Positions 47,526 to 50,804 of a DNA stretch of 64,000 bases are shown one piece after another. The stretch is from NCBI GenBank assembly GCA_020436835.1, contig JAGQWZ010000184.1, positions 1 to 64,000 on the forward strand. Direction: 5' to 3'. The translations under genes were made by a program, and so were the position numbers. Within the stretch, counting starts at the first letter, position 1, and every line of letters begins with the position of its first letter. The notes under the pieces are model-generated. The model did no database searches, had not been told where the DNA came from, and worked only from the letters and a program-made list of their open reading frames with translations. The stretch comes from Saprospiraceae bacterium (GTDB lineage: Bacteria > Bacteroidota > Bacteroidia > Chitinophagales > Saprospiraceae).

Positions 47526-48614
47526 ATGATAAAAGAATATGCCCGGCTACTGGTCGATTATTGCCTTGAAATCCAGGCCGGAGACCAACTTTTTGTTCAA
47601 TCAACCACTCTGGCTGAACCATTGGTGAGAGAAGTGTATCGATTGGCCATGCAGGCAGGTGCCCATGTGATCACCGAGCTTGAATGGAGAGAACAGTCCC
47701 GTATCTATTTCATGGAAGCCGCTCCTCATCAATTGGAATGGCTCTCTCCCAATTCACAAAAGATATTCTCTGAATTTGATGCCTACCTGCATATACGGGC
47801 TCCCTTCAATCTACGGGAAGACCAAAATACAGACCCCGAAAAAAGGAAAGCAAGGAACAAGGCAACAAAAGCGATAAGTCAAATATATAGCAATCGTACA
47901 GCCGATCGCTCTCTGAAGAGGTGCTTATGTCAGTACCCCACGCAAGCTGCCGCTCAGGAAGCAGGAATGTCGCTGGAAGAATATCAGCACTTTGTATACA
48001 GTGCCTGCAAACTATTTGATGAGGATGCGAGAAATAGTTGGCTTCAGGTAAGGAATCAGCAACAAGATATCGTAGACTATTTGAATAAAGTAGATACGAT
48101 GAGATTCCGGAAAGAGGGTACTGATCTTACTTTCTCGGTCAGAGATCGAATTTGGATGAATTCGGATGGAAGGACAAATATGCCCTCCGGAGAAGTCTAT
48201 ACTGCTCCCATAGAAGATCAGGTGAACGGAGAGATTTACTTTGACTATCCCTCCATATTCAGGGGACATCCTGTGCAGGGAATCCGCTTAAAAGTTGAAA
48301 ATGGATTCATTATCAACTGGGAAGCCCGCACCGGTCAGAAACTGCTTGATGAAGTTTTTGCCACGGAGGGTGCAAGACAATTTGGAGAAGTTGCTATTGG
48401 AACAAACTATAGCATACAGATGCCAACCGGTAACATTCTGTTTGATGAGAAGATCGGTGGGAGTATTCATATGGCGGTCGGACAAGCTTATTATCAGACA
48501 GGCGGAAAAAATACTTCATCAATCCACTGGGATATGATTTCTGACATGAAAGCAGATGGTGAGATTTGGGCCGATAGCAAATTAATCTATGAAAAAGGCA
48601 AATTTCTTATTTAG
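47526..48614 (+). CDS. M29-family metallo-aminopeptidase
   Basis: This 362-residue protein is a thermophilic-type M29 aminopeptidase (AmpS/aminopeptidase T). The C-terminal metal-binding part shows FDEKIGGSIHMAVGQAYYQTGG and SIHWDMISDM, matching the family ligands Glu, His and His-x-Asp. The N-terminal domain starts YARLLVDYCLEIQAGDQLFV. It removes N-terminal residues from peptides in the cytoplasm. It is downstream of the Lon-N-domain gene by 15 bp; the pair might act together in protein turnover. Confidence 0.94.
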   Translation: MIKEYARLLVDYCLEIQAGDQLFVQSTTLAEPLVREVYRLAMQAGAHVITELEWREQSRIYFMEAAPHQLEWLSPNSQKIFSEFDAYLHIRAPFNLREDQNTDPEKRKARNKATKAISQIYSNRTADRSLKRCLCQYPTQAAAQEAGMSLEEYQHFVYSACKLFDEDARNSWLQVRNQQQDIVDYLNKVDTMRFRKEGTDLTFSVRDRIWMNSDGRTNMPSGEVYTAPIEDQVNGEIYFDYPSIFRGHPVQGIRLKVENGFIINWEARTGQKLLDEVFATEGARQFGEVAIGTNYSIQMPTGNILFDEKIGGSIHMAVGQAYYQTGGKNTSSIHWDMISDMKADGEIWADSKLIYEKGKFLI

Positions 48615-48639: not shown

Positions 48640-49341
48640 CTATTTGATGTAGTAATCGATGCTACTGACCACCCTGGCGATTTTGTTCAAATAAAATTCT
48701 TCTGATTCATTTACCCGATTAGAAGGGATCATGGAAATAATTCCCTGGTTGGCTCTGCGGATTCCGCCAACTTCTGCACCTGAATTCGTGGCAAATTCTT
48801 CCGCTGATTTCAAAGCGGCCTGAGTTGATTCTGCCAGAAGTTCAGGTTTTATATCATTGATCTTCGTAAAAAAATACCGGGGTCTGGTTAACCAACGATC
48901 TCCGGTAAGTGAGACACCTTCATCAAGAAGCTGGTTAACCTGCCCTGAAACCTGATCGAGGATATCTACTTTATCGGTCGATACGGATATTTGCAAATTT
49001 GCAGAGTAGCGTGCCTGAGCTTCTCCATAAATATTTTCCCTGATGCTTAACTCTTCTACTTTAATCTCACTCTCAGCAAAGCCTTTTTCCTGCAACCAGT
49101 CCCTCGAATTCTTTAATTGGAGATTAATGTCACGCTTGAGATACTCAATATCATTGCCAGCACTGGACACCGCCAGAATCCAAGATCCCTGGTCTGCCTG
49201 CACTTCTTTTTCAGCTAAACCTTTTACTGATACGTATTGCGCTGATTTACGTGTCTCTAATATATAACGACCAAAAATATACATTCCTAGCACAAAAAAT
49301 ATCCCCAGGATGACCGAAGCTGGCATGTAATTTGTCTTCAT
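48640..49341 (-). CDS. SIMPL-domain (DUF541) envelope protein
   Basis: This 233-residue protein has an N-terminal anchor (ASVILGIFFVLGMYIFG) and a SIMPL/DUF541 domain (about residues 35-230), starting VSVKGLAEKEVQADQGSWILAV. It should sit in the periplasm on the inner membrane. The family (YggE, BP26) has been tied to oxidative stress tolerance and oligomeric channel-like rings, with no enzymatic role known. The start is ATG. A minus-strand TACTTTTG box at 49370-49377, 28 bp upstream, is a plausible promoter. Confidence 0.85.
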   Translation of the reverse strand: MKTNYMPASVILGIFFVLGMYIFGRYILETRKSAQYVSVKGLAEKEVQADQGSWILAVSSAGNDIEYLKRDINLQLKNSRDWLQEKGFAESEIKVEELSIRENIYGEAQARYSANLQISVSTDKVDILDQVSGQVNQLLDEGVSLTGDRWLTRPRYFFTKINDIKPELLAESTQAALKSAEEFATNSGAEVGGIRRANQGIISMIPSNRVNESEEFYLNKIARVVSSIDYYIK

Positions 49342-49578
49342 GGTAAGTGTCTCAGATGATGTAATCTCTCAAAAGTAGCAAATTTTCAACCCGTCTTTTG
49401 CTCTGATTTTGAGACAACTCAAAGACAAATGATGAAACACGTTTAACTGGTGAGCTACAGAGTTCATCAGACGAATAATGCACTGTCTGTCACAATCAAA
49501 GATAGTGAGCTTTGACATTCTAAACTGACTCTGAAATGCGATGGTCTGGTATTTTTTTTTTTGACACATCGATAAAGA

Positions 49579-49639
49579 TATTTTTGATCGGGATAACTAT
49601 GGTTTTCTAAGGCTGCTTAAAGAAGCGGCCTTATTTTTT
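49579..49639 (+). ncRNA. Candidate tiny RNA unit 1 (promoter box plus terminator)
   Basis: A promoter-like TATTTTTG (49579-49586) is followed about 22 bp later by a hairpin. AAGGCTGCTT (49609-49618) pairs with AAGCGGCCTT (49623-49632) around the loop AAAG, with one G-T pair. A T6 tract follows at 49634-49639. A transcript starting about six bases after the box would be near 50 nt. Expression is not shown. Confidence 0.35.
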
Positions 49640-49690
49640 CCTCTCCCGTTTCAATCCATTTAAAAGTTAAGTGCTACGGCACTCCAAAGA

Positions 49691-49751
49691 TATTTTTGAT
49701 CGGGATAACTATGGTTTTCTAAGGCTGCTTGAAGAAGCGGCCTTATTTTTT
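49691..49751 (+). ncRNA. Candidate tiny RNA unit 2
   Basis: The box TATTTTTG is at 49691-49698. The hairpin has AAGGCTGCTT (49721-49730) and AAGCGGCCTT (49735-49744) around GAAG, with a T tract at 49746-49751. A GTTA at 49666-49669, 21 bp upstream of the box, is a weak -33 candidate. Confidence 0.35.
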
Positions 49752-49801
49752 CCTCTCCCGCTTCAATCCATTTAAAAGTTAAGTGCTACGGCACTCCAAG
49801 A

Positions 49802-49864
49802 TATTTTTGATCGGGATAACTAATGGTTTTCTAAGGCTGCTTGAAAAAGCGGCCTTATTTTTTT
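49802..49864 (+). ncRNA. Candidate tiny RNA unit 3
   Basis: The box TATTTTTG is at 49802-49809. The hairpin has AAGGCTGCTT (49833-49842) and AAGCGGCCTT (49847-49856) around GAAA, followed by A and a T7 tract. The hairpin loop differs in all three units while the stem is unchanged. Confidence 0.35.
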
Positions 49865-49904
49865 CCCTACTACCTGAGTTCCAAAACCAGACACGACCCA
49901 GCAA

Positions 49905-50804
49905 TTATAACAAATTAAATTCGGACACTTTTTTCATTTCCGTTTCCAGGCCTTTAAGGGTCTCCCGGGTAATTGGTGTCAGAGGCAGGCGGACTTCACT
50001 TTCGCACAGTCCCATTAAATGCATACATCCCTTTATTCCCACCGGATTTCCCTCCAGGTAAAGCCAATGATGGAGGTTGATCAAAGCCTGGTTAATCCTA
50101 CGCGCTTTTTCAAAGTCACCCTCCAGCGCCAGCCGGCACATAGTGGAGAAGTTGTCAGGATATGCATTGGCGATTACCGAGATAACTCCCTTTCCTCCAC
50201 AGGCCAAAAATGGCAAGGTCGAAGGATCATCTCCAGATAAAGCCAGAAAACCGGATGCAGTAAAACGCATGATCCGGGTGGCCTGCACCATATCCGCTGA
50301 AGCGTCCTTAACCCCGGCAATATTAGCATGACTATTCGCCAACCGCACTACCGTTTCCGCCGAAATATTAGAGGCCGTTCTGCCAGGCACATTGTACATG
50401 ATAATCGGAAGAGGACTCCTCTGGGCCAAAGCCAGGTAATGCTGAAAGATACCTTCCTGAGTGGGTTTGTTGTAATACGGACTGACGGAGAGCAAGGCAG
50501 CAATTCCTTCAAAATCAAAACGATCGAATTTATCCAGCAGTGCCTGCGTATTATTACCTCCGAAATTACCTAAGACTACTGGTTTTCGACCCTTATTTAC
50601 TTCCAGGGTTTTATTTATAATTTCTTTTTGTTCTGCTTCCGTAAGCGTAGCTGTTTCAGCGGTAGTGCCCAGGCAAACCAGATAATCAACACCTCCTTCA
50701 ATCTGAAACTCTAATACCCTGGACAATGCATCCAAATCAACTGCACCATTCTTAAAAGGAGTTATTGTTGCTACTCCACACCCTTTAAGTTGATCAACTA
50801 TCAT
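49905..50804 (-). CDS. dapA: 4-hydroxy-tetrahydrodipicolinate synthase
   Basis: DapA condenses pyruvate and aspartate semialdehyde in the lysine and diaminopimelate pathway. The 299-residue TIM-barrel protein has the Schiff-base lysine Lys166 (IAGVKDAS), the catalytic Tyr137 (IIMYNVPGR) and Thr47-Thr48 in CLGTTAET, all at the expected spacing. The length is normal. Its start overlaps the stop of the DUF6913 gene by 4 bp (ATGA), and that gene overlaps accA, so the three form one operon driven from upstream of accA. Confidence 0.96.
   Translation of the reverse strand: MIVDQLKGCGVATITPFKNGAVDLDALSRVLEFQIEGGVDYLVCLGTTAETATLTEAEQKEIINKTLEVNKGRKPVVLGNFGGNNTQALLDKFDRFDFEGIAALLSVSPYYNKPTQEGIFQHYLALAQRSPLPIIMYNVPGRTASNISAETVVRLANSHANIAGVKDASADMVQATRIMRFTASGFLALSGDDPSTLPFLACGGKGVISVIANAYPDNFSTMCRLALEGDFEKARRINQALINLHHWLYLEGNPVGIKGCMHLMGLCESEVRLPLTPITRETLKGLETEMKKVSEFNLL

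Follow-up and report, generated by a model that had tools for sequence, protein, structure and literature searches.

Among base-pairing small RNAs (sRNAs) of the Bacteroidota, those studied by experiment are mostly from gut Bacteroides. Searching the full text of the open literature returned no paper naming both Saprospiraceae and sRNA. The closest described systems are the FopS and GibS sRNAs of Bacteroides thetaiotaomicron (PMC11697453, PMC7366714). The FopS RNAs are short paralogues of 65-70 nt that share a 3' terminator and a single-stranded 5' seed, of which positions 1-21 are used. The FopS seed is reported to pair at the start codon of glycan-related (susC) mRNAs and to block translation; the 14 members (nine intergenic, four antisense and one 3'-UTR-derived) repress SusC-type glycan uptake (PMC11697453). 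The Bacteroidota -7 consensus is given as TAnnTTTG (PMC7366714). Several near-identical copies of a regulatory RNA in one genome, as at the locus described here, are also reported for NgncR_162/163 in Neisseria, LhrC in Listeria and the CsrB copies of Vibrio (PMC9973317, PMC13350326, PMC6262261). Unlike the present family, those RNAs belong to unrelated phyla and have unrelated targets. CsrB works by protein binding, not pairing.

The window, a 64,000-nucleotide stretch of DNA from a Saprospiraceae bacterium analysed as a whole, carries a tandem array (Table 1) that is, with good confidence from sequence comparison, a set of three genes for one trans-acting sRNA of about 50 nt that would block translation of an exopolysaccharide-initiating transferase (PF02397). 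The initial annotation had described three tandem units with plus-strand terminators between minus-strand genes, and all of this stands: Tandem Repeats Finder (TRF) reports a period of 112, 2.6 copies and 97% matches, the direct copies number three, and the adjoining SIMPL and dapA genes are both on the minus strand. Units 1 and 2 are spaced by 112 and units 2 and 3 by 111, one A having been lost upstream of unit 3 (CCAAAG to CCAAG); the core of that unit gained one A, giving AACTAATGG. Each unit runs from TATTTTTG through GATCGGGATAACTATGGTTTTCT to an 11-bp hairpin with a tetraloop (AAAG, GAAG and GAAA in turn) and a T tract. Exactly three intrinsic terminators occur within 49300-50000, all on the plus strand and coincident with the three units (shuffle mean 0.7, sd 0.9); the same search found no minus-strand terminator at the array. 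The units are free-standing and contain no open frame. A short peptide (ATG-GTT-TTC-TAA) was considered and rejected, the frame after the core ATG not being kept (MVF-stop in the window, other readings in G001 and G043).

Table 1. Coordinates of the array, its predicted elements and neighbouring genes in the window
Feature	Position	Strand	Basis or remark
Tandem array of three predicted sRNA genes	49574..49864	+	TRF; homologous arrays at the same locus in 4 other genomes of the genus
Promoter-like -7 box TATTTTTG, unit 1 (putative)	49579..49586	+	Fits TAnnTTTG (PMC7366714)
Predicted sRNA unit 1, ~50-54 nt, 5' end placed at 49586-49590	49586..49639	+	Conserved GATCGGGATAACTATGGTTTT, then terminator
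Predicted seed, unit 1	49586..49606	+	Complementary to sugar transferase start-codon region, G000:C588:112294-112314
Intrinsic terminator, unit 1	49608..49639	+	Stem 49608-49633, then T tract
Inverted repeat AGTGC-TACG-GCACT before unit 2	49670..49683	none	Sequence not conserved
Promoter-like TATTTTTG, unit 2 (putative)	49691..49698	+	
Predicted sRNA unit 2	49698..49751	+	Terminator search, covariance model
Inverted repeat AGTGC-TACG-GCACT before unit 3	49782..49795	none	
Promoter-like TATTTTTG, unit 3 (putative)	49802..49809	+	
Predicted sRNA unit 3	49809..49864	+	Inserted A in seed (AACTAATGG), sole seed variant among 21 copies
SIMPL/DUF541 protein (PF04402)	48640..49341	-	Neighbour, context only
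dapA, 4-hydroxy-tetrahydrodipicolinate synthase (TIGR00674)	49905..50804	-	Neighbour, context only
M29-type peptidase (PF02073)	47526..48614	+	Neighbour, context only; synteny conserved

Each unit can be envisioned as three parts: a box resembling a promoter, a 5' seed (GATCGGGATAACTATGGTTTT) that stays single-stranded, and an intrinsic terminator. Transcription would proceed on the plus strand, beginning just after the TTTG-type box, and termination at the hairpin would leave a stable RNA of about 50 nt. Its 5' half is predicted to cover the transferase start codon by pairing with the mRNA and to keep translation from being initiated, with repression as the presumed result; sites in the leader may bind further copies of the RNA, and tandem gene copies would probably raise dosage. 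In the related genome G002, the complementary sites are found in the leader of a paralogous long-form transferase.

In overall design this family resembles FopS/GibS: a Bacteroidota host, multicopy paralogues, a common 5' seed, a terminator and pairing (here predicted) at a start codon. Unlike FopS, the Saprospiraceae units lie in one tandem array (or two loci) and would give RNAs of only ~50 nt; and whereas FopS is described as acting on SusC-type uptake, the strongest target found here, and the likely one, is a PF02397 transferase that makes polysaccharide. Small proteins with an RRM domain, the class to which RbpB belongs, are encoded in 7 of the 8 genomes compared (G000:C577, G001:C61 and G002:C839, and others) and are candidates for an RNA-binding partner.

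The units were also tentatively described at the outset as a mobile palindromic repeat of the REP type, a reading that tandem units with hairpins, and inverted repeats between them, might invite; REP elements are likewise short, palindrome-bearing and intergenic. Copy number refutes it. A 341-bp query with the array matches one place in its own genome (G000; 7.28 Mb, 691 contigs), where dozens of dispersed copies had been the expectation for a mobile repeat, relatives have at most two loci each, and synteny is conserved. REP elements, moreover, are dispersed and have neither the strand-specific terminator nor the conserved single-stranded seed seen here. An exact search of 2.9 million viral contigs with the core found nothing, which speaks against mobility and also led us to reject a viral origin. 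Altogether, the probability left to a REP-like or other mobile repeat is negligible.

The search of relatives proposed in the initial annotation instead revealed, between SIMPL and dapA as in the window, arrays with 2-4 copies in four genomes of the genus (G001, G002, G004 and G005), where reading frames retain the gene order M29 peptidase, SIMPL, array, dapA. A second genus (G093) has five copies at two loci, three beside dapA and two elsewhere, and a third (G043) has two single copies at two unrelated loci next to unrelated genes, so that copies per genome range from 2 to 5. Screening 398 family genomes with a covariance model yielded strong matches in the genus and these two other genera only, and exact TTTTGATCGGGATAACTATGG among 84,980 species genomes is confined to the same lineages, in metagenome bins titled Saprospiraceae, Lewinellaceae or Bacteroidia. 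Weaker model matches (E 0.0005-0.05) were not accepted as distant homologues, being mostly common terminator stems AAGGCTGC..GCAGCCTT without the seed, as were 2-mismatch seed matches in the order, which occur at chance level and without a terminator. Rfam has no family at gathering score in the window, only unconvincing sub-threshold matches, and a known RNA family was accordingly rejected as the identity of the array. In G093, a decayed unit TTTTTCTTCACCAGGATAATTAATGTTTTCTAAGCTGCG scoring ~20 bits with the model lies between two intact copies (L077:3601-3688, minus strand; G093:C178) and is a probable pseudogene copy.

Comparison of the copies separates the parts that are held from those that drift. 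Of 21 copies from seven genomes, 20 carry TTTTGATCGGGATAACTATGGTT without any change, the exception being unit 3 of the window with its one inserted A. Spacers cannot be aligned between genomes; within a genome they are nearly alike, which indicates that each lineage has homogenised its arrays or duplicated them anew, a turnover of copies specific to the lineage around a fixed seed. Given this contrast between conserved unit and unalignable spacer, selection appears to hold the unit only, and conservation of core and terminator over three genera supports the RNA reading. The array, with its conserved seed and terminator, thus supports, at the level of sequence, assignment to a trans-acting sRNA family.

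Invariance of the stem in the window had been taken as a sign of selection on structure. Three near-identical tandem copies do not carry that argument, but the relatives do, since their hairpin changes preserve structure: U-A to C-G, U-G to U-A and G-C to G-U. Paired cells make up 97% of the stem, and sliding the pairing by 1-3 columns lowers this to at most 62%. The covariation analysis that had been suggested did find compensatory and G-U changes, modest in number, with one pair (in A2) altered on both sides. In G043 a terminator of unrelated sequence stands behind the same seed; this replacement says more for a kept hairpin than the covariation counts do. The U-G and G-U pairs are valid only on the plus strand and become A-C mismatches on the minus, which settles the strand of the RNA as plus; a minus-strand RNA, which would also lack a terminator, was rejected. 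Folded in isolation, the predicted RNA (z -3.2) forms the terminator and leaves the 5' part mostly open, in keeping with a conserved single-stranded seed.

Two further elements noted at the outset fared less evenly. The proposed -7 box TATTTTTG is present at all three units and fits the TAnnTTTG consensus of PMC7366714, but relatives preserve just its T run and G, and not the TA. The AGTGC-TACG-GCACT hairpin between units is present as described; it is not a conserved part of the unit, being absent before unit 1 and equalled by shuffles in 22-34% of trials, and in other genomes the corresponding place holds an inverted repeat of another sequence, or lacks one altogether. Just upstream of many units (L002, L004, L005 and the window) there are indeed inverted repeats, varied in sequence, and in L005 a compensatory change distinguishes two adjacent copies (ATCACAT..ATGTGAT, GTCACAT..ATGTGAC). 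In shuffle tests these upstream repeats are significant in G005, in one G004 copy and in one G001 copy, and not elsewhere.

The predicted target emerged from a search of eight genomes for the seed complement CCATAGTTATCCC, with one mismatch allowed. In G000 the sole exact match to this 13-mer outside the array, at G000:C588:112302, falls within ATGAAAACCCATAGTTATCCCG, which comprises the opening codons of a bacterial sugar transferase of 256 aa (PF02397), and spans the start codon. A PF02397 gene in G003 starts with ATGAAAACCAATAGTTATCCCG. The two transferases are 62% identical across the catalytic domain, and their leaders and N-termini are otherwise unalignable, except that the G003 counterpart retains TTATGAAAACC[C/A]ATAGTTATCCCG as a 24-nt start site (E 9e-7). 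A search of 298 family genomes, among them G003, gave no relative of the N-terminal 82 aa of the G000 protein, so that protein constraint would explain the conserved bases poorly; an exact ATGAAAACCNATAGTTATCCC occurs in G000 and G003 only, among 398 family genomes. A second seed-complementary stretch, TT[T/A]TCCCGATCAA, is common to both leaders and lies ~97 and 145 nt 5' of the start. Complementarity to the translation start is found in two genomes, and in a third the seed has complements in the leader of a paralogue: G002, in which the short-form gene was not found, has GTTATCCTGATC twice in the leader of the long-form transferase, from 63 to ~33 nt before the ATG, the sole tandem pair of such kind in that genome. 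Conservation over three genera, stem changes valid on the plus strand and this start-codon complementarity all favour the near-50-nt RNA that the initial annotation had suggested.

Pairing strength was judged against a ~0.8 Mb sample of the own genome (611 gene leaders), alongside whole-genome pattern searches. With mRNA folding ignored, the best seed duplexes in these leaders average -13.9 kcal/mol (sd 2.3) and reach a minimum of -24.6; on the same basis the values at the start of the target are -26.9 (G000) and -29.4 (G003) kcal/mol, a strength attained in 0 of the 611 sampled leaders. In none of three leaders (G000, G003 and G002) did any of 150 shuffled seeds match the energy of the real one. 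A count of TTATCCCGATCAA against its reversed pattern was discarded, the reversed pattern containing the rare CTAG and so being an unfair control.

It could be argued that the repeats are DNA sites for a regulator that also binds the transferase gene, the array being a decoy or a control region for SIMPL or dapA. In favour of this, the long invariant stretch takes in the promoter-like box, and the motif is seen again at another gene. We nonetheless hold this to be very unlikely: an intrinsic terminator follows every copy on the same strand, kept by compensatory change or complete replacement; the gene match is on the complementary strand, over the start codon and with a one-base bulge; the leader sites match half of the motif only, which pairing allows and a protein site does not; and the G043 copies are single and adjoin unrelated genes.

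A somewhat more serious doubt, still improbable in our judgement, concerns the target alone: the sRNA may be as described and the transferase match coincidental or a side target, with the seed serving another, core target. The seed is indeed invariant in genomes without a transferase site (no comparable site was seen at the transferases of G001, G005, G043 and G093, and G004 was covered in part), and other targets must exist there; G000 and G003 are also related, so that their common site does not count as two independent events. Against coincidence, nothing but the 24-nt start site is strongly conserved between 5' regions that are unrelated in other respects, both leaders have the second complementary site, and the sites of G002 are independent and belong to a paralogue. 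A regulatory RNA acting on the transferase remains the preferred reading. The assemblies enter into this as well: all genomes compared are metagenome bins, and that of G000 is fragmented, with 5.65% estimated contamination, so that a foreign origin of the target contig is conceivable. No array is present in the G003 assembly, whose SIMPL contig stops 173 bp upstream of the gene; array and target are not both seen there because the assembly breaks before the place of the array.

Other candidate sites were examined as targets. Those further 13-mer matches that were examined fall mostly within coding regions or antisense and were rejected, as was a tandem site in G001 that lies inside a gene. The G003 leader has a third partial complement, CTTATCCCGAATATTTAA (L006:320-340), which resembles the site at 434 (TTATCCCGATCAAATATTTAA). 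An intergenic AAATGAAACCATAGTTATCCTTAG in G005 (L164; G005:C480) is followed within ~60 nt by AGTGCC..GGCACTTTTTT, which resembles a terminator, and by a gene for a secreted protein; it is possibly another target or a sponge RNA.

A broader reading, which we offer tentatively and at somewhat less than even chance, is that this is an undescribed Saprospiraceae sRNA family regulating exopolysaccharide initiation as a pathway, its sites having shifted between paralogous transferases while the seed stayed fixed. It would draw on the sites at the start codon and leader of the short form in two genomes and on the tandem leader site of the long form in the third. Because the likely target starts exopolysaccharide assembly, such regulation would bear on floc and biofilm formation, and the case suggests that sequence alone can yield an sRNA family, its seed and a specific target candidate in an environmental lineage.

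Two minor observations from the window may be recorded. Upstream of unit 1, AAATGCGATGGTCTGGT (~49535-49549; also in L003) is common to G000 and G002 and is possibly a regulatory site. Another tandem repeat (period 149, 2.4 copies, 86% matches) occupies positions 11-365.
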